Source: Methylotenera sp. (lineage in GTDB: Bacteria; Pseudomonadota; Gammaproteobacteria; Burkholderiales; Methylophilaceae). Taken from it: a stretch of 64,000 bases of DNA. Location: contig JAUSAG010000042.1 of the NCBI GenBank assembly GCA_030652995.1, forward strand, positions 1 to 64,000, read 5' to 3'. Every line of letters starts with the position of its first letter. The first letter of the stretch is position 1. Shown here in pieces: positions 43,351 to 64,000 of this stretch. The notes under the pieces were generated by a model. That model was given only the letters and a program-made list of their open reading frames with translations. It did no database searches and had not been told where the DNA came from. The translations under genes and the position numbers were made by a program.

Positions 43351-43403
43351 ACTATCGCCATATAAACACCGCCAATAATAGATCAATGAAAATTAAGTGC
43401 AAT

Positions 43404-44709: not shown

Positions 44710-44729
44710 ATTGTCGCCTTTCAATATTT

Positions 44730-45386: not shown

Positions 45387-45389
45387 TGT

Positions 45390-45969: not shown

Positions 45970-45971
45970 GA

Positions 45972-46163: not shown

Positions 46164-46709
46164 ACTGTTTACTCTTTTCTTATGATTTAAATTACTAAAA
46201 ATCACCAAGTAAGGGGTAAATGTTTGCTCGTTAGCGTCCAATGCTGTGCCATGAGTTATCACAATATCGATAATAAAGTGTTTACTTTTGGTTAAACTAT
46301 GGTTTACTATTCTGATAAGTTAGCTTATACAGAAACATATAATTAAATTATAAAGACTTATAAGCCAATAACGAACTACCAAACAAATACCGCCTTGATA
46401 GAGTGCTTTAATCAAGGTCAGTAAACAGTGTTCTACGCTGTCTGTCTGAAAATGACTGGCATCAAGGTTATGCGATCTAGACAATTGCATAACCTTTTCT
46501 TTTGGGTGAAAACAAAAGAATCTATTTACTACATATTGTGGTGTAAAACTTAATCCCCCTGTATATTTTGTGTTTGAATAAATCCGATAAGCGTGATTAA
46601 AGCATAGCGATTAAAGGTGATCAATCTGTTTTTTAATTAAAAACCTGAAAATATATTTAGTTAAGCCACCACACCCACAAAATAGATCGTAAATACTTAA
46701 TATCAGCAT
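46164..46709. other. Intergenic region between alpA and int with hairpins
   Basis: At 46392-46416 CCTTGAT pairs with ATCAAGG; at 46464-46496 AAGGTTATGC pairs with GCATAACCTT and is followed by TTCTTTT on the plus strand. In P4-type satellites this interval often holds immunity RNAs, so a small structured RNA is possible. No open frame is convincing. Confidence 0.5.
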
Positions 46710-47951: not shown

Positions 47952-48000
47952 ACAATCCCCATCAAGTGTATAAAACGTATAAAAATTTAAGCGTATGTGG

Positions 48001-48025
48001 TTTTATACGTTTTTTTATACGTTTT
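48001..48025. repeat. Integrase-arm-like repeat, right copy
   Basis: Identical to 43404-43428, with more partial TTTTATACG/CGTATAAAA units at about 47966-47980 and 48031. These flank the att site on the integrase side. Confidence 0.65.
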
Positions 48026-48131
48026 GTAAATGGATTTTATACGCGTGCTTAGTACATAGCTGGACGCTATATATACTTAACTCATTGAATATATTGTGAA
48101 ATAATACGAATTTGGACGGTAAAAAACATTG

Positions 48132-48155
48132 AAATGGAGCGGGTGACGGGAATCG
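48132..48155. repeat. Integrative-element attachment site, tRNA copy
   Basis: The 24 bases include the last 21 bases of tRNA-Gly (T-arm part and acceptor stem, reading minus) and three flanking bases. Identical to 43327-43350. Confidence 0.92.
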
Positions 48156-48208
48156 GACCCGCGTATCGAGCTTGGGAAGCTAGCGTTCTACCATTGAACT
48201 ACACCCGC
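48135..48208 (-). tRNA. tRNA-Gly (anticodon CCC)
   Basis: The minus strand reads GCGGGTGTAGTTCAATGGTA at the 5' end and ends CACCCGCTCCA with encoded CCA. The acceptor stem (GCGGGTG/CACCCGC) and T-arm are complete. The anticodon loop is TTCCCAA, anticodon CCC. The anticodon stem CTAGC/GCTCG has one T-C mismatch at the second pair. The gene is restored in full after integration of the element at its 3' end. Confidence 0.93.
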
Positions 48209-48641: not shown

Positions 48642-49922
48642 ATGAATAATAACTTTTTTAAATTAAGCGGGGTTGCGCTAGCCGTGGCTACTTGCTTCTC
48701 ATCCAACGTTTGGGCGGCAGACTCTGCCGCCGATGCACAAGATGTGGCGCAGTTGCGCAAACAGCTTGGCGAATTAAACAGCCGTTATGAAGCGCAAGGC
48801 GCTGCCTTGCAATCTTTGGCGCAACGGTTACAACAGCTTGAAAATTCAGGCCAAGGGCAGGCAAGGCCGATGCATGCCGTGAATAAAACGGTAGTTGCGG
48901 CTGACACCAGCGCCAATCAAACGACCAGCGATGAAAGCCGGGCGGAACAAGTGACCAACGAGCCTGTGGTGAAAGAGGCTCCTGCATCGCGCGGTGCCGA
49001 GGCGGTTTATCGCGAACAGAATGCACTATTTAATAAGACTTTTACATTGGAGACAGGGGTTAGTTACAGCCACTCTGACCGTCGCCAGCTAACGCTCAAT
49101 GGCTTTTTAGCGCTGGATGCAATTTTTCTTGGCAACATTAAACTTGATAATGTTAAATCCGACATATTTCAACTTGATGTAACTGGGCGTTATGGTGTGA
49201 CAGACCGCTTACAATTTGACTTTAATGCGCCATTTCTTTACCGCACTTCAACCTTTGAATCTGCCGGTGCAGGCTCAAGCGGTACAAACTTTGATGAGCG
49301 TGATGTAAGTAATACTAACATTGGCGATGTGAGCGCGGGCGCCTATTACCGGTTATTTCCTGAAACACCGACAAGTCCAGACGTTGTTGTAAACTTAAGG
49401 GTTAAAGCACCAACCGGAAAACATCCCTATGGCATCAAGTTCAATAAGGTAGGTGATGTTGCAGCCCCAGACGATTTGCCTACCGGTAACGGTTTGTGGT
49501 CACTTTCTACTGGTGTCACCGTGGTTAAAACTGTGGACCCAGCCATTTTGTTTGCTAATATTAGTTATTCACACAACTTTAGCCGTAAATTCAGTGACAT
49601 AAGTGGAGGAGATACTCCAGTAGCAGGTGAAATTGATTTAGGCGACTCATATCAGATTGGTGGCGGTTTTGCCTTTGCATTGAGTGACCGTATGAGTACC
49701 AGCATGTCTTATGCGCACCGTTTTTCACAAAAGGCGCGCATTAAAAAATCGGGAGCTAGTTGGGATAGCATCGTAGGCAGTGATGCCAGCGCTGGCTCGC
49801 TTAACTTTGGTGTCACGTACGCCATGACTGACAAGCTTACAATGGTGGCCAACGTTGGCATGGGCGTCACGCCAGATGCACCGGATGTGACGGTGGGCAT
49901 CAAGTTCCCGTATATTTTCTAG
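48642..49922 (+). CDS. FapF-like outer-membrane transporter
   Basis: The 426-residue product has a signal peptide (cleavage near VWA-AD at 25/26), a predicted coiled coil at about 33-70 (VAQLRKQLGELNSRYEAQG, LQSLAQRLQQLEN) and a long Ala/Thr/Glu linker. A C-terminal beta-barrel of the MetA-pathway/phenol-type transporter family ends in PYIF. This signal, coiled coil, linker and barrel layout is that of FapF, the trimeric channel that exports functional amyloid subunits. The amyloid genes lie 10 kb downstream on the same strand, which supports the assignment. Plain transporter family membership is the alternative. Confidence 0.65.
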   Translation: MNNNFFKLSGVALAVATCFSSNVWAADSAADAQDVAQLRKQLGELNSRYEAQGAALQSLAQRLQQLENSGQGQARPMHAVNKTVVAADTSANQTTSDESRAEQVTNEPVVKEAPASRGAEAVYREQNALFNKTFTLETGVSYSHSDRRQLTLNGFLALDAIFLGNIKLDNVKSDIFQLDVTGRYGVTDRLQFDFNAPFLYRTSTFESAGAGSSGTNFDERDVSNTNIGDVSAGAYYRLFPETPTSPDVVVNLRVKAPTGKHPYGIKFNKVGDVAAPDDLPTGNGLWSLSTGVTVVKTVDPAILFANISYSHNFSRKFSDISGGDTPVAGEIDLGDSYQIGGGFAFALSDRMSTSMSYAHRFSQKARIKKSGASWDSIVGSDASAGSLNFGVTYAMTDKLTMVANVGMGVTPDAPDVTVGIKFPYIF

Positions 49923-49999
49923 GTGTTGCAATAATTAAGCGTAGCAAACATAGCCACTTCAAGTAAGTTCAGCCATTCGCAACAACAAGTAATTGATTA

Positions 50000-50027
50000 A
50001 TGAGCCCTTTCAGGGCTCATTTTTTTG
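50000..50027 (+). terminator. Terminator after the FapF-like gene
   Basis: ATGAGCCCT pairs with AGGGCTCAT around TTC and is followed by TTTTTTT. The hairpin makes the FapF-like gene monocistronic. Confidence 0.92.
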
Positions 50028-50304
50028 CCAGCCAACCAGGTGGTAACGCCCCGTACATTTTGCTAAACGGGCTCATTCACATCACAATTAGCAACCCCGA
50101 GCAGAACATTCAAATACTGTGCTATTTACACGTCAAAAATATCAACATTTACTCACCCTAATGCGCTAAAGCTAAATTCACCTGATATGTTATGATAAAC
50201 GCACAAGTACTGTAATTTTATTTCATACTTTAACAAAAGATACAATAGGTTATACTGCAAAATCGGTTGCAGTTTACAATTGATTACACTTGAAGAAGGG
50301 CCGT
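50028..50304. other. Intergenic region upstream of the CheB-CheR hybrid
   Basis: An AT-rich gap with no gene. It should contain the promoter of the CheB-CheR/PAS-LuxR pair. No sigma-54 consensus or recognised operator. Confidence 0.4.
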
Positions 50305-53229
50305 ATGGCAACCAAGAACGTAACCAAAAAATCGAATAAGCCAGCAGTCGCAGATAACGTGCGCGACGCTGGGTTTCCTATCATCGGCATAGGCGCTTCT
50401 GCCGGCGGGCTAGAGGCGTTTGAGCAGTTTTTTCATCATCTGCCCAATGATTGCGGCATGGCATTTGTACTGATACAACACCTTGACCCTAGCCATGGCA
50501 GCATTCTCACCGAGATTTTACAACGCTCAACACAGCTACCCGTGGTTGAGGCGCAAGACCAAATGCAGGTTGCCCCCAATGCTGTTTATGTGATTCCACC
50601 TAACCGAGATATGGCGATTTTTCATGGGAAATTGCAATTAAGTGTCCCTAATGAGCCACGCGGTCAGCGCATGCCGATTGATACATTTATGCGCTCGCTG
50701 GCTGAGGACATGGGAGAAAGGGCCATTGGCATTGTGCTCTCAGGTACTGGCACTGACGGCACACTAGGGTTGCGCACCATTATTGGTGCTGGTGGTATTT
50801 CGCTTGTACAAAAGCCAGAAAGCGCAAAATTTGACGGCATGCCCACCAGCGCCATTCAGGCAGGCTATGCCACTTACATACTACCCGCTGAAGAGATGCC
50901 GCAACAGCTAATGGGAGATTTACAGCACCTGATAGCCCCTAGCGTTGCAAAACCATCTCAACTGACTGAGGTTGGCATTAACCATATTTTAATGGCGTTA
51001 CGCAGTGGCTGTGGGCATGATTTTTCACAGTACAAAAAAACTACCATCACCCGCCGCATTGAAAGGCGAATGTCGCTGCATAGTATTGAAGATGCCGAAG
51101 TTTACTTGCGCTTTCTCAAAGAGCGTCCAACTGAGGTGCAACTGTTATTTAAAGAACTACTCATCAATGTCACTAATTTTTTTCGAGATGCTGAGGCTTT
51201 TGAGGAGTTAAAACTAAACATTTTGCCGCAAATGTTAGCAGGCAAAGACCATGATTATGTATTCCGGGTTTGGGTAGCAGGTTGCGCTACGGGCGAAGAA
51301 GCGTATTCAATTGCTATTTTGCTACGCGAATGGATGGACGAGAACCAGCGTGAGTTCAGAACCCAGATTTACGCGACCGATCTTGATGACGATGCCATAG
51401 CGACCGCACGTGCAGGTTTTTATTTACCTAATATTGCGCAAGATGTGTCTGCTGAGCGGCTACGCAAGTATTTTATCAAAGAAGACTCAGGCTACCGCGT
51501 ACGCAAAGACATTCGCGAGATGGTTGTGTTTGCTGTGCAAAACGTAATTAAAGACCCACCTTTTACCAAGCTGGATTTACTCAGCTGCCGCAACTTGATG
51601 ATCTACCTTGAGCCAGCATTGCAAAACCGGTTGATTCCTACCTTTCATTATGCGCTCAAGCCAGACGGCATACTGTTAGTTTCACCATCAGAAAGCATCG
51701 GCAATCATACCGAGCTGTTTGAATCAGTCAGCCGCAAATGGAAGCTTTACCGCGCCTTACATAGTAGCGCCTCTGCACGCAAGCTGTTGACCAGCGGTTT
51801 ATCATGGAGCACAGCTGTCACCAGCAAAGTGCCTGAGGTCATCATTAAAAAGCCTAGGGATGCCAGTTTTGTAGAGCTAACGCGACGCATGTTATTGCAG
51901 CTGTTTGCACCGGCTTCGGTCGTGACCGACATGCAGGGCAATATTCTTTTTGTGCATGGTGATACTGGCAAATATTTACGGCCTGCCCCTGGTCAGGCTT
52001 CGCTCAACGTTATTGATATGGCGCGTGAAGGTTTGCAACTCGAGTTGCTTTCCATGATTCATGCTGTTGTTAAAGATAACTTGCAGACATTAAACCGAGA
52101 AGTATCGATCTCATTTAACGGTAGCCTGTCGGTTGTAAACGTCAGCTTACGTAAACTTGAAAGCGCTGAACCAGGCGAGAATATATTGCTACTGAGCTTT
52201 CAAGATATTGAAACCACTACGCCTAAAAAATCCAAACGCTTGCCACGCACAACTGAAAGCGGCGTAAAACTGCGCATAGACACGCTAGAGCAAGAGCTTG
52301 CACATACCAAAGAAACCTTGCTGGCAACCATTGAGGAACAACAAGTCACCAATGAAGAGTTGCTCTCTAGCAATGAAGAAATGCAATCTACCAACGAGGA
52401 GCTTCAATCCACTAATGAAGAGCTGGAGACCTCTAAAGAAGAGTTGCAATCGGTCAATGAAGAGCTGATTACAGTCAATACAGAGTTACAGTTCAATATT
52501 GAGCAATTGTCAGGCATGCAAAGTGACATGAAAAACCTGCTCGACAATGTGAGCGCTGGTATTATTTTTCTAGATCAACACCTGCATATTCGCCGCTTCA
52601 CTCGTGAAGCCGTGCAAATTTATCGCTTGGTGCCAGCCGACGCAGGCCGCCACCTAGGCGACATTAAAACTAATTTGTTAGGTGACGAATTACTACTGCC
52701 TGCACAAGAAGTGCTGGAAACGCTCACGCCTTACGAGCGAGAAATACAAGCGACCAATGGCCTATGGTATCTGGTACGGATTCAGCCTTATCGCAGTTTA
52801 GATAATGTGATTGACGGGCTAGTGCTTACCTTTACCAATATCACGGCACGCATAGAAGTGGTTGCCATGCAAGATTCGCTGGCGCTGGCTGAGGGCATTG
52901 TAAATACTGTGCGCGAGCCGCTTGTGGTATTGAACAATGCTTTACAGGTGGTTTTTGTCAGCAGTTCGTTTTACACGTTGTTCAAAGTATCATCAGATGC
53001 AGTCGTCGGCCTGCCGATTTATGAGCTGGGTAGCGGTGAGTGGAACATTCAGGATTTACGTAACCTACTGGAAGCGGTGCTGACTCGCGGTGAAGTGGTT
53101 GATGATTATTTGGTTGATCATGATTTTCCGACCATTGGGCATCGAAAAATGCGACTGAATGCACGTCGCATTGTGGGGAAAATGGCCAGCACGCAACTGA
53201 TTTTACTCGCAATTGAGGAGATCAAATGA
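50305..53229 (+). CDS. CheB-CheR-PAS hybrid signalling protein
   Basis: ATG 50305 is chosen over TTG 50290 because AAGAAGGG precedes it. The 974-residue protein has a CheB methylesterase domain without a receiver (about 20-205: GIGASAGGLEAF with Ser, IQHLDPSHGS with His, GTGTDGTLG with Asp). A CheR methyltransferase follows (about 215-480: CATGEEAYSIAI, then CRNLMIYL), then a long coiled coil of EELxSxNEE repeats (about 655-735) and at least two PAS-like regions. Such hybrids usually act in non-chemotactic signalling. It overlaps the PAS-LuxR gene by four bases (ATGA). Confidence 0.9.
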   Translation: MATKNVTKKSNKPAVADNVRDAGFPIIGIGASAGGLEAFEQFFHHLPNDCGMAFVLIQHLDPSHGSILTEILQRSTQLPVVEAQDQMQVAPNAVYVIPPNRDMAIFHGKLQLSVPNEPRGQRMPIDTFMRSLAEDMGERAIGIVLSGTGTDGTLGLRTIIGAGGISLVQKPESAKFDGMPTSAIQAGYATYILPAEEMPQQLMGDLQHLIAPSVAKPSQLTEVGINHILMALRSGCGHDFSQYKKTTITRRIERRMSLHSIEDAEVYLRFLKERPTEVQLLFKELLINVTNFFRDAEAFEELKLNILPQMLAGKDHDYVFRVWVAGCATGEEAYSIAILLREWMDENQREFRTQIYATDLDDDAIATARAGFYLPNIAQDVSAERLRKYFIKEDSGYRVRKDIREMVVFAVQNVIKDPPFTKLDLLSCRNLMIYLEPALQNRLIPTFHYALKPDGILLVSPSESIGNHTELFESVSRKWKLYRALHSSASARKLLTSGLSWSTAVTSKVPEVIIKKPRDASFVELTRRMLLQLFAPASVVTDMQGNILFVHGDTGKYLRPAPGQASLNVIDMAREGLQLELLSMIHAVVKDNLQTLNREVSISFNGSLSVVNVSLRKLESAEPGENILLLSFQDIETTTPKKSKRLPRTTESGVKLRIDTLEQELAHTKETLLATIEEQQVTNEELLSSNEEMQSTNEELQSTNEELETSKEELQSVNEELITVNTELQFNIEQLSGMQSDMKNLLDNVSAGIIFLDQHLHIRRFTREAVQIYRLVPADAGRHLGDIKTNLLGDELLLPAQEVLETLTPYEREIQATNGLWYLVRIQPYRSLDNVIDGLVLTFTNITARIEVVAMQDSLALAEGIVNTVREPLVVLNNALQVVFVSSSFYTLFKVSSDAVVGLPIYELGSGEWNIQDLRNLLEAVLTRGEVVDDYLVDHDFPTIGHRKMRLNARRIVGKMASTQLILLAIEEIK

Positions 53230-54692
53230 GTGATAATTTAATCAACAAACCTGACCATAAAAGTTTAGAGGGTAGAAATAGAGCGGCTTTCGAGCGCCGT
53301 AATTTGAGGCATGAAGCTGAGCTACTATTATCCAAACAATCCAAGTTGGCAACCACGGATACACTGCCTGCAGATGAGCTATTACAGGAACTCCAAGTAC
53401 ACCAGATTGAGCTGGAGATGCAAAATGAGGAGTTGCGGCGCGCGCATATTGCATTGGAAGAATCACGCGACCGCTATTTAGATCTGTTTGAGTTTGCACC
53501 CGTGGGTTACCTTACGCTTTCATCCTCAGGCTTGATTACCGAGGTAAACTTTAGTGCAGCCGAGTTGCTGGGCTGCGAGCGTAAAAAATTATTGCAGCGC
53601 CCGTTCTCGCGATACATTGCACCCGAATGGGTTAACCAGTTTCATCTGTATATGGCGCGCTTGAGTTGTCAAAATGACAAAAAGAATTGTGATATGCAAA
53701 TCAAACGTGAAAATGGTGAGCTAAGGTTTATACACTTGGATACGCTCCCTGTAAAAGCCGAGGATGGCACGGTTACGGTGCGTATTACGCTGATTGACAT
53801 CACCGAGCGCAAGCAAGCTGAAGAAGAGCTACGTATCGCTGCCAAAGCTTTCGAGGTGCAAGAAGCCATGATGGTGACAGATACCCATAACACTATTATT
53901 CGCGTGAACAAAGCCTTTACAAGGATCACTGGCTATCAGGCTGAAGAGGCCACCGGCAAGCCGTCATCTATACTCAAGTCTGGGCAGCATGACAATGCGT
54001 TTTATCAGGCGATATTTGAGGCGATTGACCGTAACCAATACTGGCAAGGCGAAATTTGGAACCGGCGCAAAAATGGGGAGCTGTTTCCAAGCCTGATGAA
54101 CATTACAGCCGTCACCGACACAGAGGGACAGGTAACCCATTACGTAGGCTCGTTTTTAGATATTACCGTGCAAAAACAGGCAGAAAAAGTGCTGTTAGAT
54201 GCGCGCAAACACTTGGGAAAACAAGTTGAAAAAACGGTTGCCGACTTGACGCTTGCCAAAGTAGAGGCTGAAGAAGTGAATACTGCACTAAGAGTCATGA
54301 TTAAACTGCGGGAGACGGAAAGTTCAGACGCTAAAAATCTACTGATTCTTGAACTCAAGCAGGAAGTGATGCCATTTTTACAAAAGCTTAAAGGCGCTAG
54401 CCGTGAACCCAAGCAGGTGCGTCTGCTGAACGCGCTGGATAGCAATTTGCAGCGGCTGATTACTTCTTACGGTTCAGCGTCCAGCCTTTCATCTGTGTAT
54501 AAAGCCCTAACGCCCAAAGAAATTCAAGTGGCCTCCATGGTGCGTGAGGGTGCCTCCACCAAGGCCATTGCCGCAACCTTGTCACTTTCACCAGAAACCA
54601 TCAGCATTCACCGCAAAAACATTCGCTCAAAGCTCGGCCTCAGCAGTAAATCAGATAACCTGCGAAGCTATCTGATTACACTACACAACTAA
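53226..54692 (+). CDS. PAS-PAS LuxR-type regulator
   Basis: The 488-residue protein has an N-terminal coiled coil (LLQELQVHQIELEMQNEELR), two PAS domains (about 75-195 and 200-320; LFEFAPVGYLTL, AMMVTDTHNTIIRVNKAF), a linker helix and a C-terminal LuxR HTH. The HTH reads LTPKEIQVASMVREGASTKA and IAATLSLSPETISIHRKNI. No transmembrane segment or receiver is seen. It overlaps the CheB-CheR hybrid, so the hybrid may signal to it. It could regulate nearby biofilm genes; this is inference. Confidence 0.9.
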   Translation: MSDNLINKPDHKSLEGRNRAAFERRNLRHEAELLLSKQSKLATTDTLPADELLQELQVHQIELEMQNEELRRAHIALEESRDRYLDLFEFAPVGYLTLSSSGLITEVNFSAAELLGCERKKLLQRPFSRYIAPEWVNQFHLYMARLSCQNDKKNCDMQIKRENGELRFIHLDTLPVKAEDGTVTVRITLIDITERKQAEEELRIAAKAFEVQEAMMVTDTHNTIIRVNKAFTRITGYQAEEATGKPSSILKSGQHDNAFYQAIFEAIDRNQYWQGEIWNRRKNGELFPSLMNITAVTDTEGQVTHYVGSFLDITVQKQAEKVLLDARKHLGKQVEKTVADLTLAKVEAEEVNTALRVMIKLRETESSDAKNLLILELKQEVMPFLQKLKGASREPKQVRLLNALDSNLQRLITSYGSASSLSSVYKALTPKEIQVASMVREGASTKAIAATLSLSPETISIHRKNIRSKLGLSSKSDNLRSYLITLHN

Positions 54693-54979
54693 TCACGCTT
54701 AAAAAAATCAACCTCAGAATAACCATTTATTTAAGAAAAATGGTTAATACGCATAGCCATTCCTTACCTTTTACTCTCCCTTTATTTGCAATTGCTTGTG
54801 CTTTTTTATGCGCATACGATGAAGGTGTGGAGTTGCCAGCACTTAATTAACGTAAACGTTAGTGTTTGGGTGGTGCACGCAATTTCATTATTCATAGCCA
54901 TGACTAAGGCTTGATTGCAGAGCATGACGAACACTTTGCCACGGTGATTGTTAGTGATTATTTAGTAAAGGACTAAAAA
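54693..54979. other. Intergenic gap after the PAS-LuxR gene
   Basis: No gene is seen before the 54980 frame. The sequence is AT-rich, with no clear terminator. Confidence 0.35.
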
Positions 54980-55225
54980 ATGAGACACGCATGGGACACA
55001 AAGAGCAAGAAAAATAAATACGGTGCGGAGGATAGGGAGCCTTTTTATGATAAACATGCGCACTCGGTTGCTTCACGGTCTTATCATCAGGCGAAACAGT
55101 GTGGGTTTTTCTCTGGAAAAAACATACTTGAGTCACTAGAACAAGAAACGCAATATGCGGTTGGCTCAATCTCTAGGCGGAATAGCGGGCAATATAAAAG
55201 TAATACGAGCGAGGATCTTGTTTAG
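54980..55225 (+). CDS. Hypothetical small protein (81 residues)
   Basis: The frame begins MRHAWDTKSKKNKYGAEDRE with AAAGGA about seven bases upstream. The product is charged and probably soluble, with no hydrophobic segment and no recognised family. It stands alone between two signalling genes. It may be real or chance; the ribosome-site spacing is the main support. Confidence 0.35.
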   Translation: MRHAWDTKSKKNKYGAEDREPFYDKHAHSVASRSYHQAKQCGFFSGKNILESLEQETQYAVGSISRRNSGQYKSNTSEDLV

Positions 55226-55564
55226 GAGTCCGACCGTGTGTTTACCATATGCTTAATACAAATCTTTACTCGAAGTTGCTTGATGTAAAAAACATTCAAG
55301 TTGTTATTTAGTTTCGTGCATACGACTTTTCATGTGCTTTCACTCAGAATAATGAGCTTTAGCTCATATATTACGTGGGGAAGCCAAATACTGGCTTAGC
55401 ACTTAGTAGATTAATAGTACTTATCAGTTTATTCTGATCGTAGTACCGATAGTGGTGCAAAGGTGTTACTCATAACAAACACAGATGACTCGTTATAACC
55501 GAACCGTTTCCGCCCCCTGCAAGGGGTCGGGAATATTTAGCCCAATGAACAATCTAGAATAAAA
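55226..55564. other. Intergenic region with a repeat tail before the GGDEF gene
   Basis: No gene is seen. From 55511 it contains CCGCCCCCTGCAAGGGGTCGG and then TATTTAGCCCAATGAACAATCT, an imperfect copy of 58905-58950. The GGDEF gene's start lies at the edge of this repeat. Confidence 0.5.
55511..55564. repeat. Repeat copy A (CCCCCTGCAAGGGG...GAACAATCT)
   Basis: The segment with a CCCCTGCAAGGGG palindrome and TATTTAGCCCAATGAACAATCT closely matches 58898-58951 (TATTTAGCCTGATGAACAATC). It lies directly before the ATG of the GGDEF gene. Confidence 0.65.
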
Positions 55565-57082
55565 ATGGCGTTTATCATGAAAAATGAATCTGACAAGTTG
55601 TTGCAGTTTCCTAAGTTGCGCCAAGTCGCTGAGTCGGAAATAGCCCGCATGCATGAAGATAAGACTACCGACGCTAAGGCAGATGAACTCTTGCATGAGC
55701 TTCATGTACACCAACTTGAGCTTGAAATGCAAAATGACGAGTTACAACGTACTCAAATGGCGCTGGCAGATTCACTCAGCCGTTATGTAAGCCTATATGA
55801 ATTTGCACCAGTAGGGTATCTGACCCTTAACGAGAATGGTGTGATTGATGAGGCCAATTTAGTCAGCGCTGAGTTGCTGGGCGAGAACAGGGCAACACTG
55901 TTAAAGCAAGGTTTTCAGCGTTTTGTTTCGCCTGAAGACAGTGCTTGTTGGCATCAGTATTTTCAAAAATTAGTGCAGCAGTATGACAAGCATACAAGCT
56001 GCGATGTAAAAATGCGGCGAGCAGATGCTAGCGCATTTTACGCGCGGTTAACCTGCCTGCCGTTGGGCTTAAAAAATTCGATGCAGGTTGATTCCGGCAA
56101 GTTGACGGTCCGCGTGGCACTGACTGATATCAGTGAGATAAAGCTGGCAGAACAGGAGTTACGTGTAGCGGCGGCAGTGTTTGAGTCGCGCGAGGGCATG
56201 ATGGTGACTGATGCCCACAGTATCATCTTAAAGGTGAATAAAGCCTTTACCGACATGACCGGTTACTCAGCCCAGGATGTGCTAGGGAAAACACCGCATC
56301 TATTGAGGTCTGGGCGCCACGTTGAAGATTTTTATGCGGTCATGTGGTCTGGCATTCATCATACTGGTGCGTGGCAAGGTGAACTATGGAACCGCAAAAA
56401 GTGCGGAGACTTACTTCCAGTATGGCTCACCATCACTGCGGTAAAAAGTGAGGCGGGCGAGGTATCGAATTATGTTGCAACGTTTACCGATATTACAGCA
56501 CGCAAAGTGGCAGAAGATGAATTGCAGCAACTGGCTTTTTATGATTCGCTAACAGGGTTGCCCAACCGGCGGTTGCTGTTAGACCGAATGCATAGAGCCA
56601 TTGCTACCAGCGCACGGACCCGACGGCATTGTGCGTTAATGTTTGTGGATTTGGACAATTTCAAAGGGCTGAACGATTCGCTAGGTCACGATACTGGCGA
56701 CCTGATGCTGAAAATTGTTGCCCAGCGCTTGGGGATTAGCGTGCGTGAAGGTGATACTGTCGCTCGCTTGGGTGGGGATGAATTTTTGATCATGTTAGAA
56801 AACCTGAGTGAAGACCCTCAGGAAGCAACAGCCTTAACCGAGATGATCGGCAATAAAATACTGGCCGCTATCAATAAGCCATTTCAACTGGTGGGGCATG
56901 AATATAACATTAGCGCCAGTATCGGTATAACAATGTTTACCGACCATCGCTATAGCGTGCCAGAACTGCAAAAACAAGCTGACATTGCGATGTATCAGGC
57001 TAAATTGGCTGGGCGCAATAGGTTGCGACTTTTTAAGCCAGAGACATTTACTGACAGCCCCACCCAATACTTTAAGGTTTGA
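55565..57082 (+). CDS. PAS-PAS-GGDEF diguanylate cyclase
   Basis: The 505-residue protein begins with a coiled coil similar to the previous PAS-LuxR protein (LLHELHVHQLELEMQNDEL), then two PAS regions (about 70-190, 195-315) and a GGDEF domain (about 315-485). GGDEF is intact at 403-407 (ARLGGDEFLIM), and an I-site RxxD (R394, D397) lies five residues before, implying product inhibition. SLTGLPNRRLLLDR and VDLDNFKGLNDSLGH are present. It makes c-di-GMP and lies just upstream of a VpsR-like activator. The start is uncertain (55565 or 55577); neither has a strong ribosome site. Confidence 0.92.
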   Translation: MAFIMKNESDKLLQFPKLRQVAESEIARMHEDKTTDAKADELLHELHVHQLELEMQNDELQRTQMALADSLSRYVSLYEFAPVGYLTLNENGVIDEANLVSAELLGENRATLLKQGFQRFVSPEDSACWHQYFQKLVQQYDKHTSCDVKMRRADASAFYARLTCLPLGLKNSMQVDSGKLTVRVALTDISEIKLAEQELRVAAAVFESREGMMVTDAHSIILKVNKAFTDMTGYSAQDVLGKTPHLLRSGRHVEDFYAVMWSGIHHTGAWQGELWNRKKCGDLLPVWLTITAVKSEAGEVSNYVATFTDITARKVAEDELQQLAFYDSLTGLPNRRLLLDRMHRAIATSARTRRHCALMFVDLDNFKGLNDSLGHDTGDLMLKIVAQRLGISVREGDTVARLGGDEFLIMLENLSEDPQEATALTEMIGNKILAAINKPFQLVGHEYNISASIGITMFTDHRYSVPELQKQADIAMYQAKLAGRNRLRLFKPETFTDSPTQYFKV

Positions 57083-57297
57083 ATGCAATGTCATTTTTAA
57101 GCAGATACAACCCATGAGACAAGTTAACTATTTGCCATTTTTTTATAAATATAATTGACCGAATGGTTATCAATAATACTAATTAAATAACAATTTAATA
57201 CCCTTTATGGCAACTTGCTTATGCAGTATGTGACGAATACAGTTATATGCTTGCGCGATCTGTTTTTTGGGTATTTAAAAACCAAAGGCGGTTAGTA
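57083..57297. promoter_or_regulatory. Leader region of the sigma-54 activator gene
   Basis: A 215-base AT-rich gap. TGGCA at about 57210 lacks the matching -12 element. AAAGGCGG lies upstream of ATG 57298. Confidence 0.4.
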
Positions 57298-58674
57298 ATG
57301 TACAGTAAAGAAAATCGAAATTTGCTTTATTTTAACTCCTCGGATAAACCTTCCGTTCTGGTAGGCGAAATGTGCAATGCAGGATGGGATGTAAAATTAG
57401 CAAATAATGTTGATGGTGCAGCTAGTATTATCGACAAATACACCCCGCATGTCGCCATCGCACAGTTTGATGGACTAAACGACTCACTGGCATCGCCGGT
57501 TGAAAATCTTTTCCGCAATATTGATCGTGTAGAGTGGGTGGCTTTGCTACCTAAAAGCTGCATAAATAAAAGCCATGTCAAGCAGATAATCGGTGAGTCC
57601 TTTTATGATTTTCACACGCTTCCACCCGCCCCAGAAAGACTATTAGCAACACTAGGTCATGCCCACGGCATGGCATCAATCAAGTGGGGGGATGCGGCTA
57701 TAGACCTTGAGCTACCGATAGGTGAAGATGAAATGGTAGGTGCCAGCCCGCAGATGTTGGAACTGTTTCGCAATTTACGCAAAGTTGCTGGCGTTGACGC
57801 GCCGGTGCTGATTACCGGAGAAAGTGGCACTGGTAAGGAGCTGGCAGCACTTGCGTTGCATGAGCGCTCAAGCAGGCGAAACATGCCATTTGTAGCAGTA
57901 AATTGCGGCTCACTGCCTAGCGGCCTTATTCAATCAGAATTATTCGGGCACGAAAAGGGCGCCTTTACTGGTGCTAGCCAACGCAAAATTGGCCGCATTG
58001 AGTCGGCTGCAGGCGGCACCATTTTTTTGGATGAGATTGGTGATTTGCCACTCGAGTTACAAGTGAATCTTTTGCGCTTTTTGCAGGAAAAAACCATCGA
58101 ACGTGTAGGTGGCACTTCACAAATTAAAGTGGATGTGCGCGTGCTGGCAGCCACCCACGTTGATTTAGAAGTTGCCGTTGCAGAGGGGCGTTTTCGTGAG
58201 GATCTTTACTATCGCTTAAACGTACTCAAAATTAAAACCCCAGCTCTGCGTGAAAGACAAGGCGATGTTGAGGTGTTGGCTAAGTATTTTTTTGATAAGT
58301 TTGCCCACGAAAAACGGCGCAATGTCAAAGGATTTTCACCTTCAGCCTTGCGCATCATGAATCAGTACGCATGGCCCGGTAATGTGCGCGAGCTTATCAG
58401 CCGCGTTCGCCGCGCCATGGTAATGTGCGAGCGACGCTTAATTACGCCAGAGGATCTTGATCTTGATCGGCGTGACGGCAAACGATTAGTCACCACGTTG
58501 GAGGCTGCTAGAAACGCGGCAGAAATAGAGGCTATTCGCAATGCCTTGAAAAAGAATAATGGCAATATGTCAATAGCAGCACAAGCGCTTAAAGTGTCAC
58601 GCATGACCTTGTACAGACTTGTTCAAAAATACGAGTTGGACTTTAAGCAAGATAGCATTAGCGACCTCATTTAA
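57298..58674 (+). CDS. VpsR-like sigma-54-dependent activator
   Basis: ATG 57298 (MYSKENRNLLYF) is preferred because AAAGGCGG precedes it; ATG 57247 has no site. The 458-residue protein has an N-terminal VpsR-type receiver-like domain (CNAGWDVKLA, FYDFHTLPPAPERLLATLGH) lacking an obvious phospho-Asp pocket. The AAA+ domain has GESGTGKE, the sigma-54-contacting GAFTGA and FLDEIGDLP. A Fis-type HTH ends it (NNGNMSIAAQALKVSRMTLY). Vibrio cholerae VpsR binds c-di-GMP to drive biofilm genes. Here the neighbouring cyclase and the sigma-54 promoter of the amyloid genes suggest direct control. Confidence 0.88.
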   Translation: MYSKENRNLLYFNSSDKPSVLVGEMCNAGWDVKLANNVDGAASIIDKYTPHVAIAQFDGLNDSLASPVENLFRNIDRVEWVALLPKSCINKSHVKQIIGESFYDFHTLPPAPERLLATLGHAHGMASIKWGDAAIDLELPIGEDEMVGASPQMLELFRNLRKVAGVDAPVLITGESGTGKELAALALHERSSRRNMPFVAVNCGSLPSGLIQSELFGHEKGAFTGASQRKIGRIESAAGGTIFLDEIGDLPLELQVNLLRFLQEKTIERVGGTSQIKVDVRVLAATHVDLEVAVAEGRFREDLYYRLNVLKIKTPALRERQGDVEVLAKYFFDKFAHEKRRNVKGFSPSALRIMNQYAWPGNVRELISRVRRAMVMCERRLITPEDLDLDRRDGKRLVTTLEAARNAAEIEAIRNALKKNNGNMSIAAQALKVSRMTLYRLVQKYELDFKQDSISDLI

Positions 58675-58741
58675 ACGCTCTGCGTTAATCCAATTTTTTT
58701 ATCTTAATCTACCCTGATAATTCATTAGAACTGATCTGTTC

Positions 58742-58970
58742 CTTCCCCCTTGCAGGGAGCTCCGGTTCTTGGCATCCCCACATGAATATATCTGCTAAAG
58801 CAGATTATTCATGTATGAAAGGGTAGAGCCTGCCCCGTACTTGATACGGGGATGGGGGTAAGGTAGCAATTGCCACGTTTCGACCCCCTCACTAACCCTC
58901 CCCCTGCAAGGGGGAGGGTTATTTAGCCTGATGAACAATCTGGGATAAAATCTCCCTGCGAGAGGGAGTG
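58742..58970. repeat. Repeat copy B with hairpins and CCCTCCCCCTGCAAGGGGGA
   Basis: The segment has ACATGAATA-ATCTGC inverted at 58780-58814 around TAAA, a CCCCGTA...TACGGGG pair near 58834-58850, and CCCTCCCCCTGCAAGGGGGA at about 58895-58914. TATTTAGCCTGATGAACAATC follows, matching 55511-55564. It looks like a family of palindromic intergenic repeats. Confidence 0.65.
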
Positions 58971-59047
58971 AGATCAAACCTCAGGCAAACCTTGAGACCA
59001 TTGATAGCGGCTCTCATAAGTGCATACCTGTAAATAAATACATGGCT

Positions 59048-59078
59048 TTGTAGGCGCGCAATTTATTGTGCGCCTACA
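59048..59078. repeat. Stable hairpin upstream of the amyloid operon
   Basis: TTGTAGGCGC-G-CAA pairs with TTG-T-GCGCCTACAA around TTTA and is followed by AATAA. It may be a terminator or a REP-type repeat. It lies 270 bases before the sigma-54 promoter. Confidence 0.6.
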
Positions 59079-59346
59079 AAATAATTGGCTGTTACCATTA
59101 TTTTATGAGATTCGCTATCACATCGAACTTAAGCCACCTCAAGCCTACACATGGCTTTATCACCCGCCACCTTTATCGTTAACCGTGTATCAAAACTGAA
59201 ACAGTTTTTTCAGTTATTTTTTCTTATATATTTCAATGACATACAAAAATACACGAATCTTTGTGTAATACGAATGATACAAAGCCGCGCTATGGAATAT
59301 TCATGTAAATACAAATTAAATTAACAAAAACAAGTAGTTATAAACA

Positions 59347-59362
59347 TGGCACAGTCGTTGCT
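59347..59362 (+). promoter_or_regulatory. Sigma-54 promoter of the Fap-like operon
   Basis: TGGCAC-N5-TTGCT matches the -24/-12 RpoN consensus (TGGCAC-N5-TTGC) exactly. It lies about 75 bases upstream of the first secreted gene's ATG at 59437. The VpsR-like sigma-54 activator gene is directly upstream, 670 bases away. Confidence 0.85.
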
Positions 59363-59436
59363 AATACTATTACAGCAATAATCACAAAAATAATCAGGTA
59401 ATAAAGTTAGGGTCAGTGAGCAAGGAGCGAAATAGC

Positions 59437-59814
59437 ATGGACTGGTTGACTAAACATCAATCCGTTAATAACGGATTAAACGGACTACGGTTCGTTGGTT
59501 GCATGTTAGGGGTAATCGGGATGTGTTGTTCGACTTCCGCGCTTGCTGACCCGCTTTCTGGGTTAGTTGAAGATTCAGAGTCTCTATCTTTGATCGGCAA
59601 TCAAACTACGGGGAATCAAGCAAAATCGATGACGGATATTGATTTGTCAGTCATCAGCGGTAAGGGCGGTATAGCAGCAAACTTAGGCGACAACGAGAGA
59701 CTGGCTGTCATTCTTTGGGACGAACGTGGAGGCGGTAATCCGCGCACTACAAATAATGAGGTTGGTGAGCGTCAGGGTTTCCAAAACGTTAATCTGACCA
59801 TTAACCAAAGATGA
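59437..59814 (+). CDS. Secreted protein, first gene of the amyloid operon
   Basis: ATG 59437 is chosen because AAGGAGC lies eight bases upstream. The 125-residue product has a signal peptide (cleavage near ALA-DP). The mature part carries DIDLSVISGKGGIAANL and a LAVILWDERGGG segment. I do not recognise the family. The LSVISGKGG motif parallels LSHVRGRF and LGHMRGKF in two later proteins of the operon. Its position before the FapB-like gene is where a FapA-type chaperone would be. The stop overlaps an upstream ATG of the next gene. Confidence 0.6.
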   Translation: MDWLTKHQSVNNGLNGLRFVGCMLGVIGMCCSTSALADPLSGLVEDSESLSLIGNQTTGNQAKSMTDIDLSVISGKGGIAANLGDNERLAVILWDERGGGNPRTTNNEVGERQGFQNVNLTINQR

Positions 59815-59828
59815 GATGGAGATATACG

Positions 59829-60359
59829 ATGAATAGAGATATGTACAAACATAAAATGCACGCAACGATACCAGCCGCATTATTCATAGCGATAGAGGGG
59901 CTATATGCCGCGCCGCTTATGGCAGGTGATGGCATTGTGGTGTTGCAGCGTGATGTGCCTGTTCGCAATGCTATTCGTGAAGGCAGTCCTGGGCGCGCTA
60001 CCACTATCGATGTTTCACCTGACGATAAAGTAAAGCAAGTAGTGAGTGGCCAGCAAGCGAGCCTTAGGTCTATGGAAATAGGTGATAGCGAGTTTGCCAA
60101 TATTTCAACTGATACCCCACAGGGTTTAGGGGTAGTGGCGAACGCGACAAATGCAATGGGGTTATCAAATGTAACGGTTGGTGGGCATGGTCTGAATAGT
60201 ACGGGCGGCGGTTCAGTTCAATCGCTCGGATCAACACTCACCGGCACAGTAGGTGGGGCAGTAGGCGGCGCAACGGGTCAAATGGCTGGTGGCATTGCCG
60301 GCGCGACGGGCGCTTTAAGTGGCTTAGCTGGCGCAGTAATGCGTACTAGCGGTCAGTAA
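59829..60359 (+). CDS. Secreted Gly-rich protein of the amyloid operon
   Basis: ATG 59829 is preferred since GGAGAT lies eight bases before it; an earlier ATG at 59811 overlaps the previous stop. The 176-residue product has a signal sequence (cleavage near LMA-GD), a central NATNAMGLSNVTVGGHGLN region and a Gly/Ala-rich C-terminus (GTVGGAVGGATGQMAGGIAG). No family recognised. It may be a minor fibre component or chaperone. Confidence 0.6.
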   Translation: MNRDMYKHKMHATIPAALFIAIEGLYAAPLMAGDGIVVLQRDVPVRNAIREGSPGRATTIDVSPDDKVKQVVSGQQASLRSMEIGDSEFANISTDTPQGLGVVANATNAMGLSNVTVGGHGLNSTGGGSVQSLGSTLTGTVGGAVGGATGQMAGGIAGATGALSGLAGAVMRTSGQ

Positions 60360-60369
60360 GGAGGTGGCT

Positions 60370-60999
60370 ATGAAAGGTTCAACTCTTTTAGTTTCAACAT
60401 TGCTAGTGGTGCCAACGGTGTTATATAGCGGCTTGGTCATGGCGCAAGATCCTTTGCCAGATTTACCCGGCTATGTCACGCAGAGTGTCATTGATAGCAA
60501 CGTTTTAAGTCATGTGCGCGGGCGGTTTGCCGTCAACATGACCGCAGGAGATTCAAATGTCCAGGCAAATGCCACAGCAGTGGCATTGGGTGCGGAAGGC
60601 GGCTCGGCTATCGGGTTGGTAGGCGGCATTCAAGTGACAGATCCACGGCAAGGTAACTTGCCAGACCTCGCAACTGCGTCGATTGGGAGCAATGTCTTTG
60701 CAAATAGCTCAGGCTTGATTTCAGTCAACCAATCTAGCGGGGTAGGAAATGCACAAGCTAACGGTGCGGCGTTTGCCATGGGTTTTGAAGAGGTGGTAGC
60801 GGAAAGCGTGCTCTCCGCCGCCACTTCAAATGCAGTACCAACTGGCGCAGGAGCTGGCAAGAGTCACCAAGCAGTATCGATCAATGATACCGCGTTTGAT
60901 GGTGCACACGGGCTAGTTCAGGTTAACCAGTCGGCGGGGTCGGGCAACAGTACGGCCAATAACTTCGCGCTTCAGGTGCAACTGGGTGCGAAACCGTAG
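60370..60999 (+). CDS. FapB-like three-repeat secreted protein
   Basis: ATG 60370 is chosen because AAGGAGG lies five bases upstream; GTG 60364 overlaps that site. The 209-residue product has a signal peptide (cleavage near VMA-QD). Three imperfect repeats lie at about 38-74, 101-138 and 167-204, each with a G-x-x-x-VN-x-(S/T)AG-x-(S/G)N-x-(Q/T)AN pattern. The first starts with LSHVRGRFAVNMTAGDSN. FapB, the amyloid nucleator of Pseudomonas, is also a small three-repeat protein directly before fapC. Order and repeat motif support this; a FapA role is possible. Confidence 0.7.
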   Translation: MKGSTLLVSTLLVVPTVLYSGLVMAQDPLPDLPGYVTQSVIDSNVLSHVRGRFAVNMTAGDSNVQANATAVALGAEGGSAIGLVGGIQVTDPRQGNLPDLATASIGSNVFANSSGLISVNQSSGVGNAQANGAAFAMGFEEVVAESVLSAATSNAVPTGAGAGKSHQAVSINDTAFDGAHGLVQVNQSAGSGNSTANNFALQVQLGAKP

Positions 61000-61036
61000 T
61001 TTTTTGTTTTATAACCAACCTTAATCGGAGAATATC

Positions 61037-62239
61037 ATGAAATTACAATTAAATAAAACCCCAATTGCGTTGGCATTGGCTGCACTATTTATCTCGCCAG
61101 TCGCTTTTGCAGAAGGTAACAATAACAGCAATAACCATGACGGCGTGAGTATCAAAAAAGACATTAGTCTTGAGCAGGACATGGTCATTAAAGGGGTCAT
61201 ACTTGTCGGCGGCATTGCTCGTGTTGATGCCAGCTCAACCGCTATCGTAGATGACAAACAAATTAACGGTAGCAATAATGTGTTAAACAACGAAGTGACT
61301 AACGCTGCGGCAGTGAATGGTAATGCCCTCAATAATGCTTCTGGCAATATTGGTGTAAACGTTACCGCTGGCGACAATAACCAGCAAGCTAACGCAGCGG
61401 CTTTCTCTGCAGCTGATGCAAGCTTTGTATTTGGTTCATCTGATGCAGAAATTTTTGCTACTCAGGCTGTTATGGGTAATACCACAAACTACCAAGGCAA
61501 CACCAATGCTGCCACACTGGGTGGCAATGCATTAGCTAATGCCTCTGGCAATATCGGCGTTAATATTTCTGCCGGTAACAACAACCAACAAAAGAACGAT
61601 CTGGCTGCCTCAGTTGCGGTGGCACGTATCGCGACTGCTACCGTGCAAGCTAATCAGTTAAACGGCGGCAACACTACAAACAACACCCCAATTCATAAAG
61701 AAGAAGTGCAAAATGTTGCGGTTAATCTAGCCTTGAATGCTAGCGGTGGTTACTTTGGCGGTGGTTTCGGCGGCTATAGCGGTAGCGCATCTGGCACTAC
61801 TGCTGGCACTTCAGATCAGATCGGCAATGTCTATCCTGACATTTGGACTGGCGGCAGTCACCCAAGCGGAAGCCCAGCAGGTCACTTTGACCTAGACACT
61901 CAAACTCAAGGCGGTAGTGATCTTAACAATGATGGCGGTGCGTTAGCATTCAATAATAGTGGCACCTACTCAGGTCGCGAGCATGGTCACTTAGGCTTCG
62001 TTGAAGCTGGTGTTCAATCACTCACCGGCACTGTGTCTGGATATATTCCAGTAGTGGTCGCAGTTAACCTAGCAACTACTAACACCTCAACATTAGGTGA
62101 TAACGCACTGATGAATGCCTCTGGCAACATTGGCGTGAACATTGCGTCAGGTACTAATAACCAACAATTTAACGGGTTAGCAATCTCAGCAACTCAATCT
62201 GGTGTTGGTGGCGGTAGTAACGGTGGTGGCGAGTTTTAA
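61037..62239 (+). CDS. fapC: FapC-like major functional amyloid
   Basis: The 400-residue product has a signal peptide (cleavage AFA-EG at 25/26). Three highly similar repeats lie at about 88-122, 155-189 and 346-383, with core NASGNIGVNVTAGDNNQQ, NASGNIGVNISAGNNNQQ and NASGNIGVNIASGTNNQQ. Linker one is about 33 residues and linker two about 157, Gly/Ser-rich (YFGGGFGGYSGSASG). Pseudomonas FapC has the same three-repeat, short-then-variable-linker plan. The C-terminal CxxC of Pseudomonas FapC is absent. CGGAGAATATC precedes the ATG. The Asn/Gln-rich repeats are expected to form the amyloid core. Confidence 0.82.
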   Translation: MKLQLNKTPIALALAALFISPVAFAEGNNNSNNHDGVSIKKDISLEQDMVIKGVILVGGIARVDASSTAIVDDKQINGSNNVLNNEVTNAAAVNGNALNNASGNIGVNVTAGDNNQQANAAAFSAADASFVFGSSDAEIFATQAVMGNTTNYQGNTNAATLGGNALANASGNIGVNISAGNNNQQKNDLAASVAVARIATATVQANQLNGGNTTNNTPIHKEEVQNVAVNLALNASGGYFGGGFGGYSGSASGTTAGTSDQIGNVYPDIWTGGSHPSGSPAGHFDLDTQTQGGSDLNNDGGALAFNNSGTYSGREHGHLGFVEAGVQSLTGTVSGYIPVVVAVNLATTNTSTLGDNALMNASGNIGVNIASGTNNQQFNGLAISATQSGVGGGSNGGGEF

Positions 62240-62282
62240 ATTAACTAGTCGCGCGTAGATAGCTCAAAAGGCTATTGAACGA

Positions 62283-62310
62283 GTCCCAGTCGGCGCTTTC
62301 CGGCTGGGAC
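62283..62310 (+). promoter_or_regulatory. Hairpin between fapC-like and fapD-like genes
   Basis: GTCCCAG-CGG pairs with CCG-CTGGGAC around a six-base loop, with no T-run afterwards. It may stabilise the upstream amyloid mRNA or partly terminate, lowering expression of fapD and fapE relative to fapC. Confidence 0.65.
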
Positions 62311-62387
62311 TTAACCGCTAATAATATTTTTATCGCGTTACTTAGCAGTAATTTTAGCAACAATTAAGGTGCGGAAAGAGAGTGGCC

Positions 62388-63143
62388 ATGCAACACCACA
62401 TTAAGCACAAACAAATTCTAGTGTTCGCGGTCGTCGTGCTTGCGAACGTCGTTGCAGCGAGCATTGGACATCCAACCTCAATATCATTAGTTTCACCGGT
62501 AAAGGCCGCTGACATAGCATTTGGCAATGTTCTACCTGGGGGTGGCGTCATCCGAAAAAATCTCATCAGCATGCGTGAAATGAAGTTCGTCAACATGGTG
62601 CAGCAACACACTGATTTTAGCTGTGGAGCAGCGGCGTTGGCAACCATTTTGAACTACGTCTACAACCAGAACCTGACCGAAGAACAAGTCATTGAAGGTA
62701 TGTTAAAAGTAAGTGACGTGGAGCTGGTGCGTCAAAAAGGTTTTTCACTGCTGGATATTAAAAATTATACGCAAAGCATTGGCATGCGTGGGCGTGGCTA
62801 TAACGTACAAGCCGCCACGTTAGAAAAAATTACTATCCCGACTATCGTATTACTGAATTACAAAGGCTATAAACATTTTGTTGTGCTTAAAAAAGCCACC
62901 GCAGATAAAGTCTATATTGCAGACCCTGCCTTGGGTAACCGCATTATGAAGCGGGCAGAATTTGATGCCAGCTGGAACGGTATTGTATTTGCGGTGATTG
63001 GTCAGGGTTTTAATCGTGAGTCTGTATTGTTGCAACCAAAGGAAGGCCTGACTGCACGTACCTTAATCAACAACTACCGCCCATTAACCGATGCCGAGTT
63101 ATTTGATTATGGATTTGTGCGTTCTGACCTGCTCGGATTATGA
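62388..63143 (+). CDS. fapD: C39 peptidase FapD-like
   Basis: ATG 62388 is preferred; GTG 62382 is in frame. The 251-residue protein has an N-terminal signal or anchor (ILVFAVVVLANVVAASIG). The C39 domain starts with MVQQHTDFSCGAAALATIL (catalytic Cys), has His in KGYKHFVVLKK and Asp in VYIADPALGN. FapD is the C39-type peptidase of Fap operons, thought to act in secretion or processing of amyloid subunits. No ABC transporter domain is fused, as in FapD. It follows the FapC-like gene by 150 bases. Confidence 0.82.
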   Translation: MQHHIKHKQILVFAVVVLANVVAASIGHPTSISLVSPVKAADIAFGNVLPGGGVIRKNLISMREMKFVNMVQQHTDFSCGAAALATILNYVYNQNLTEEQVIEGMLKVSDVELVRQKGFSLLDIKNYTQSIGMRGRGYNVQAATLEKITIPTIVLLNYKGYKHFVVLKKATADKVYIADPALGNRIMKRAEFDASWNGIVFAVIGQGFNRESVLLQPKEGLTARTLINNYRPLTDAELFDYGFVRSDLLGL

Positions 63144-63229
63144 GCATAGCAAGACGCCGATAGCGCCACGCTAAAGTAATAAATAACCCAGGAATTAATT
63201 AAGCTGGGGTGTTTTAAGGAGGTTTAAAA

Positions 63230-64000
63230 ATGAATATTTCAATTAATGTTTCTAAAATGAATTCGATTCAACATGCACAGTATTTGCGCCAGTTGGCTAC
63301 GGAGTCTATGCCAACGCTAAACATCAAACCTAGCCCATCGCATGCAAAGGCAAATATCAAAAGTTATCCAAAAAAACTAGCGCTAGCACTTGCTGGGATG
63401 GTCGCTTTTTCACCAATGGCTAATGCCGCATTGCCACCTAACATTGATGTATTTAATAATATACAAGAGGTATCTGATGGTGACTTAGGCCATATGCGCG
63501 GCAAGTTTGCCAGCAATAATCAGGTCATGTATTTTGGCATAGAAATGGTGAGCCAATGGCAAACACCAACCGGCAATCTGGTGACGGCGGGTGCTAATCT
63601 TAATATTGATTTTCAAGTTAATGGCAGTACACCAACCGTGCAATATGTGCCTACGGTTACGATAGTATCGCAAGGGCAGGATGCAGCCTCAGCGCAAAAT
63701 GGTAGCACTAATTCCGTGAGCGGTGGCGCGGGGCTAGCCAACGTGAGCGGCGTTTCTCAAAGCATTCAGGTAGCGGGGCAATCTAACAGCATTAATAACG
63801 GGATTGATATGCAGGTTAATATTTCGTCATCTGCACAGGCTGGCGGCTTGGTTTCCAGTGCGCTACAAGGTCACGCTGGTTCAGTGTCTGCGAACGCGGA
63901 TGATGGCACCGTGGCCACGGTGACACTCTCTCACAATAGCATCGGCGTTAGTGTTGTTGTGCCCGGGCAAGGACAGGTATTACAACAAATCCGCAATCAG
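63230..64000 (+). CDS. FapE-like secreted protein, cut by window end
   Basis: The frame from ATG 63230 (AAGGAGG seven bases upstream) runs 257 codons to the window end without a stop. The product has an extended signal region (about 45-67, LALALAGMVAFSPMANA), then DGDLGHMRGKFASNNQVMYF, IEMVSQWQTPTGNLV and a GGAGLANVSGVSQSIQVAG segment with repeated N and S. The RGKF-x-x-N-x-x-x-YFG(I/V)EM-S-WQ pattern resembles FapE, the minor co-secreted amyloid component. It is the fifth amyloid gene of the operon; a FapF gene may follow outside the window. Confidence 0.7.
   Translation, partial: MNISINVSKMNSIQHAQYLRQLATESMPTLNIKPSPSHAKANIKSYPKKLALALAGMVAFSPMANAALPPNIDVFNNIQEVSDGDLGHMRGKFASNNQVMYFGIEMVSQWQTPTGNLVTAGANLNIDFQVNGSTPTVQYVPTVTIVSQGQDAASAQNGSTNSVSGGAGLANVSGVSQSIQVAGQSNSINNGIDMQVNISSSAQAGGLVSSALQGHAGSVSANADDGTVATVTLSHNSIGVSVVVPGQGQVLQQIRNQ

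Follow-up and report, generated by a model that had tools for sequence, protein, structure and literature searches.

A Fap functional amyloid locus in Methylotenera with an additional conserved small protein that shares a candidate FapD site with FapE

We analysed the first 64,000 nucleotides (the window) of contig JAUSAG010000042.1, a 175,139-base contig from a 2.66-Mb Methylotenera genome (assembly GCA_030652995.1). As read from sequence alone, the window holds a complete fapABCDEF functional amyloid system, the operon of which begins with an extra gene for a small secreted protein, here called X. The layout and control of this locus appear to be of known kinds; what appears to be new is X itself and a leader-like motif that X shares with FapE, a candidate site for the C39 peptidase FapD. 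We propose, with slightly more belief than doubt, that this is a sigma-54-driven Fap system in which FapD reads the motif on X and FapE and cuts after its G-K/R, the products joining the fibre by way of FapF. The features at the centre of this proposal are as follows (a slash marks the predicted cut).

59437..59814, + strand: X, small secreted protein, first gene of the operon, 125 aa from ATG (the open reading frame (ORF) opens at GTG 59416)
59629..59670, + strand: leader-like motif of X, MTDIDLSVISGK/GG (FapE-trained matrix; C39 spacing)
59707..59724, + strand: VILWDE of X (LWDE invariant in 26 aligned X)
62382..63143, + strand: fapD, C39 peptidase (NF058616, 295 bits; cut-off 330)
63230..64000, + strand: fapE, continuing to contig position 64159, 159 nt beyond the window (NF058559, 89 bits for the in-window part; cut-off 250)
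63470..63511, + strand: leader-like motif of FapE, VSDGDLGHMRGK/FA (FapE pattern and matrix)

X is a gene of a family without a name, with weak matches below cut-off in Pfam and NCBIfam and no named family over cut-off. It is not described as a Fap component in the literature searched, which yielded no description of X, no settled FapD site and nothing on functional amyloid in Methylotenera. An earlier note on this DNA had begun the gene at GTG 59416; ATG 59437, with AAGGAG upstream, is the likelier start, and the stop of X overlaps the start of fapA. Compared with its nearest relative, X differs at 6 first, 6 second and 13 third codon positions (11 synonymous and 13 non-synonymous codons), which marks it as coding and fast-changing. 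Across 26 aligned X, 16–52% identical to that of the window, six residues are invariant: L77 and G82, both in the leader-like motif, and L100-W101-D102-E103 (numbered from GTG 59416). A profile built from LWDE-bearing ORFs identified 17 X in an initial set of 46 loci and 25 X in 79 named fap loci, with hosts including Methylotenera, Halomonas, Billgrantia, Aidingimonas, Franzmannia, Amphritea, Methylophaga, Oceanospirillaceae, Acidiferrobacterales and other metagenome-assembled genomes (MAGs); it found none in Pseudomonas, Stenotrophomonas, Polaromonas or Marinobacterium loci, each spanning at most about 12.7 kb. X was also present in 11 of the 369 genomes of an evenly drawn class sample, nine of which had a FapD match; the X of G392, on a 4.2-kb contig, lies beside a bacterial enhancer-binding protein (bEBP) gene and a fapB-like stretch, with no FapD match. 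Once four named-locus X on contigs already counted were removed, 38 distinct X remained, two of them (L068 and L069) in C39 loci with no fapC listed. The profile matched five of 398 genomes in a phylum sample, including G517, the match of which was rejected as X on finding its sequence to be FapE. One locus, L191, carries tandem fap clusters, with two each of X, FapB, FapC, FapD and FapE and a single fapF and bEBP gene in 20 kb.

The tail of X after LWDE contains G..N.Q in 26 of the 38 X, against 1.67 expected from shuffled tails, a pattern chosen after the alignment was seen; the 12 that lack it include all seven Methylotenera X. This tail bears on whether X might instead be a bacteriocin or signalling peptide that FapD matures and that has nothing to do with the fibre. 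A short peptide behind a leader-like motif and beside a C39 peptidase is what such a system would present, but no immunity gene was recognised by eye among the neighbouring ORFs of the window and the G..N.Q tail, with the same post hoc caveat, recurs as in amyloid repeats, and we regard this explanation as very improbable.

The shared motif has the form hydrophobic(-12)..L(-7)..hydrophobic(-4).G[KR]; it precedes LWDE in X and is nearly universal in FapE, where it reads [hydrophobic]xDxxLxx[hydrophobic]RG[KR][FY] or a near variant. The core FapE pattern was found in 99 of 101 FapE (a few duplicate contigs among them), the misses being L143, a mis-started ORF with the motif further in, and L068, which has RGGF; the R and G of the motif are among 12 residues invariant in 44 FapE. 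A matrix trained on 69 distinct FapE windows alone, with p values from 500 shuffles per X, scored 29 of the 38 X at p<=0.01 and 36 at p<=0.05, and the motif lies 10–19 residues ahead of LWD in all but one. When the matrix was run on 8539 non-FapE ORFs, the top 26 comprised 10 X, 10 FapB (from Methylotenera and Polaromonas, with some contigs represented twice), five FapE or FapE-like proteins and one other small C39-locus protein, chance matches starting at rank 27. In the reverse direction, the non-X matches of the X profile at E<=0.01 were 18 proteins, all FapE. The window's fapB bears a motif-like IDSNVLSHVRGRFA at 60490-60531; this FapB motif scores well in Methylotenera and Polaromonas, overlapping the first repeat there, but was rejected as a general feature. 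Likeness between the X and FapE motifs within loci (p 6e-4, 35 pairs) was likewise set aside as evidence, as it is confounded by genome relatedness.

Structural models bear on a second alternative, namely that this is a standard Fap locus in which the motif is a structural helix of FapE and the likeness of X reflects common N-terminal descent with no shared processing. In a model of FapE from M. mobilis (mean predicted local distance difference test (pLDDT) 70.9; zero PDB matches at E<=0.001), the motif falls in a predicted helix at 69-81, with confidence below 50 at 77-80, directly before a predicted beta body at 85. A helix joined to a beta body would suit this alternative, and the within-locus likeness may be no more than relatedness. 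Beyond the motif, however, X has LWDE and no FapE-like body, and only the motif positions and LWDE are invariant, which makes the structural account unlikely in our judgement. The AlphaFold model of X is of low confidence and mostly disordered (mean pLDDT 56.7), with predicted helices at 20-38 and 74-79 only, the short second helix falling inside the leader-like motif.

The spacing of the motif points to FapD. A substrate of a transporter C39 peptidase must be hydrophobic at -12, -7 and -4, and the cut falls behind GG, GA or GS (PMC10885120). If the G-K/R of the motif is placed at -2/-1, all three hydrophobic positions are present in 35 of the 38 X and in 95 of the 101 FapE, and the three together with Gly at -2 in 34 and 95, respectively. 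The motif thus resembles the double-glycine leaders of C39 transporters as these are described, with hydrophobic -12, -7 and -4 and Gly at -2, but differs in having K/R rather than G/A/S at -1 (PMC10885120) and in sitting behind a Sec signal, facing a free-standing periplasmic peptidase. Thirteen sister loci (L073-L084 and L092) encode a FapD-like C39 peptidase and a FapF-like barrel, in many cases a bEBP too, and a FapE-like protein in which RGG occupies the motif position (for example, VSNQELDQLRGGF); in 11 of the 13 the FapE profile also picked out a second small protein, in several cases with an ending like NVIIQNAVIVNLNLQ, and none has a fapC match. GG stands at the motif in the 15 proteins taken from sister loci, RGG having been the criterion for choosing them. 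Because the spacing in X and FapE matches that of C39 leaders and sister loci have GG at this place, we propose FapD as the enzyme that cuts both X and FapE. In 21 FapD sequences, Q75, C81, H165 and D181, which we take to have their usual roles in the C39 active site, are invariant, so that the site is kept. The FapD cysteine is reported to be essential, the first ~70 residues of FapE gave no mass-spectrometry peptides, FapA to FapD being covered throughout, and the Fap proteins are stated to have no canonical C39 sequences (Rouse 2017, PMC5557850); a 2018 review calls the FapD substrate undetermined (PMC6173800) and a 2025 review describes FapD as 'thought to process' FapE and FapF (PMC12822426).

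FapA carries a stretch akin to the motif that lacks the Gly at -2, IGDSEFANISTD at 60078-60119 in the window and ELSDGDFANVATG in a Pseudomonas, visible as ELSDxDFAxVxSG. A FapE-trained nine-column matrix gave p<=0.05 in 43 of 75 FapA (nine at <=0.01) versus 17 of 150 control ORFs, its best window often lying elsewhere than this stretch; with statistical support of this modest size, we keep FapA as a carrier of the motif as a lead only. The stretch, which lies in a protein seen uncut in Pseudomonas, would suit a third alternative, in which FapF or FapA recognises the motif as a signal for docking or export and FapD does not cut there, as would the presence of the motif on proteins expected to traverse FapF. 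We consider this improbable: the motif is spaced like a C39 leader, and RGG takes its place in sister loci that have a C39 peptidase.

From the gene content, the promoter sequence, the common motif and its spacing, we infer the following course. Sigma-54 RNA polymerase and a VpsR-type, probably cyclic di-GMP (c-di-GMP)-responsive activator would switch on the Fap operon. X and FapE, exported by Sec, would carry the common motif into the periplasm, where FapD would read it as transporter-linked C39 peptidases read double-glycine leaders. A cut after G-K/R would release a beta-rich FapE body and a 49-residue X peptide comprising LWDE and an N/Q-rich tail, which may leave through FapF and take a minor role, as fibre or anchor components, next to FapB and FapC.

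Several points weigh against cleavage of X and FapE by FapD. Cleavage was not observed. Neither GG, GA nor GS is usual at the motif, -1 being R/K in 31 of 38 X and 100 of 101 FapE; the spacing windows were picked by the FapE matrix, making the FapE spacing figure circular and the X figure partly so. The window's own X scores p=0.048 and has no literal G..N.Q tail, and the X of L069 fails the matrix. G340, where X lies beside a bEBP gene and a fapB-like stretch and a fapF homologue is present, has no FapD match, contrary to a strict dependence of X on FapD. X is absent from the Pseudomonas loci and is therefore dispensable for Fap in general. The cut predicted near residue 39 of the Pseudomonas FapE analysed here would agree with loss of the N-terminus but leaves the published peptide gap to about 70 unexplained. 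Last, FapC is the only one of the six Fap proteins to exceed its curated NCBIfam equivalog cut-off, FapA, FapB, FapD, FapE and FapF falling below theirs. As a candidate FapD site, the motif is strong in its sequence pattern and unproven as a cut.

The remaining fap genes of the window are these.

48642..49922, + strand: fapF, outer-membrane channel, detached from the operon (NF058560, 470 bits; cut-off 700; PF13557)
59811..60359, + strand: fapA (NF058617, 33 bits, E 5.7e-8; cut-off 110)
60364..60999, + strand: fapB (NF058557, 84 bits; cut-off 190)
61037..62239, + strand: fapC, three repeats (NF058558, 202 bits; cut-off 195, exceeded)

The earlier note had recognised a Fap-like locus in a methylotroph, and this reading is borne out: the ORFs lie where it placed them, the host genus is Methylotenera, and the NASGNIGVN repeat occurs three times in FapC, which contains no Cys. 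We assign the system to Fap because the best NCBIfam matches name all six proteins (E 5.7e-8 to 4.9e-141 for the five other than FapC), FapB to FapF among them as that note had anticipated, and because synteny is kept in relatives, three of the same genus (L016, L017 and L071) having the order fapF-bEBP-X-A-B-C-D-E. The NCBIfam cut-off for FapD is narrow, being reached by none of the 369 class-sample genomes. A FapD relative was found in only seven of 52 Methylotenera genomes, the window's genome counted, so the system is patchy across the genus. One extra gene, not the two secreted proteins once supposed, stands in front, because 59811-60359 is FapA; X is the other. The channel gene is indeed separated by signalling genes, four of them, across a gap of 9.5 kb (fapF end 49922 to X start 59437) rather than 10 kb.

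The locus shares with Pseudomonas fapABCDEF all six proteins, a three-repeat FapC, a C39 FapD and a FapF channel; it differs in the extra first gene X and in the detached, upstream fapF, which in most other fap loci examined lies 3' of fapE. The split that had been offered as a departure from Pseudomonas is real, but it was rejected as a novelty: a 2013 survey reports detached fapF in four of 16 genera and fapA missing in six of 16 (Dueholm 2013, PMC3792158). A further difference is the lack of Cys in the window's FapC; for the FapC of Pseudomonas a CXXC at the C-terminus is described (PMC5135000). The same survey gives Fap in Beta-, Gamma- and Deltaproteobacteria only (PMC3792158); we noted Fap clusters outside GTDB Gammaproteobacteria in L193 (G517) and L111 (a Rhodospirillales MAG that may be misbinned). 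Two further observations concern the surroundings. In L015, a downstream ORF at 12485-13033 resembles, by eye, a formaldehyde-activating enzyme, which fits a methylotroph. In the window, a 4.8-kb element (43327-48155) adjoins fapF. It is bounded by two identical copies of a 24-bp repeat, one at 43327-43350 and one at 48132-48155, of which the latter runs into the end of a tRNA-Gly gene (48135-48208, - strand); the element contains an ORF at 46710-47951 that looks integrase-like by eye.

Between fapF and X lie the signalling genes and the promoter.

50290..53229, + strand: large signalling gene, presumably CheB/CheR-like (ORF)
53226..54692, + strand: PAS-PAS-LuxR-type regulator (PF13426, PF00196)
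55565..57082, + strand: PAS-GGDEF diguanylate cyclase (PF00990, 164 bits; intact GGDEF motif in the ORF)
57247..58674, + strand: VpsR-type sigma-54 activator, a bEBP (PF00158, 238 bits; PF20161 VpsR, 65 bits, over cut-off)
59347..59362, + strand: sigma-54 -24/-12 site, TGGCACAGTCGTTGCT (sole 0-mismatch match in the window)

This promoter and the FapE/X motif, the informative parts of the locus, were missed by the earlier note. The site TGGCACAGTCGTTGCT is one of 64 window matches with at most two mismatches, 59.6 such being expected by chance in all. In 19 of the 25 named X loci a site with at most one mismatch lies at -250..+60 of the X ORF (0.0125 expected per such interval), and one precedes fapA in three of 51 loci without X. 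Of the 25 X loci, 22 have a bEBP homologue, as do 40 of the 54 that lack X; its absences may be cut-offs, because the loci span no more than about 12.7 kb. Relatives of the PAS-LuxR and PAS-GGDEF genes precede the bEBP gene of L018, as does, by eye, a PAS-GGDEF-like gene in L070. In P. fluorescens PF07, a -24/-12 promoter is reported mapped before fapA and fap expression depends on RpoN and BrfA (PMC9207406), the latter termed a c-di-GMP-sensing enhancer-binding protein (PMC13101488). The window's bEBP has VpsR and sigma-54 interaction domains and rpoN lies elsewhere in the genome; with the -24/-12 site and the GGDEF gene, this makes it very likely, as judged from sequence, that the Methylotenera operon is under control of the known RpoN-bEBP kind. 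The arrangement resembles that of PF07 in its -24/-12 site before the operon and nearby bEBP gene (PMC9207406, PMC13101488). It differs in that the Methylotenera bEBP gene lies upstream of the operon in the same direction; in the Pseudomonas loci the homologue is on the opposite strand and downstream of fapF, the position described for brfA (PMC9207406).

Other C39 loci suggest that the motif could have wider relatives. FapD matches FilB (123 bits) and FapF matches FilC (77 bits) of the Acinetobacter-type FilB/FilC set (NCBIfam 'putative pilus system'), far more weakly than either matches Fap; the literature search returned no recognisable description of a FilB/FilC system. Distant C39 loci (L085-L091) gave no score with the FapE matrix, some having AG- or GQ-type motifs by pattern. 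Among the proteins of L086-L089 are some with motifs like ESAMSDVSGQAG and EAQMDQVSAG, which may be variants of the same leader code. We tentatively extend our proposal, at the cost of greater doubt, to the idea that free-standing periplasmic C39 peptidases, among them FapD, the sister-locus type and perhaps FilB types, may recognise a single leader code carried by partners exported through Sec, with hydrophobic residues at -12/-7/-4 followed by G-K/R in Fap, GG in sister loci and AG/GQ in others. X would then be an overlooked seventh Fap protein matured by this code, and FapA, lacking the Gly, a pseudosubstrate that escapes cutting and could restrain FapD.

X is a conserved small protein and a candidate fibre component in Methylotenera and Halomonas, absent from the Pseudomonas loci examined. 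The protease activity of FapD is reported to be essential for Fap secretion (PMC5557850); the motif common to X and FapE suggests what FapD may target and names candidate FapE residues that can be tested in Pseudomonas. If the broader idea holds, the double-glycine leader would have a second use, at the outer membrane.

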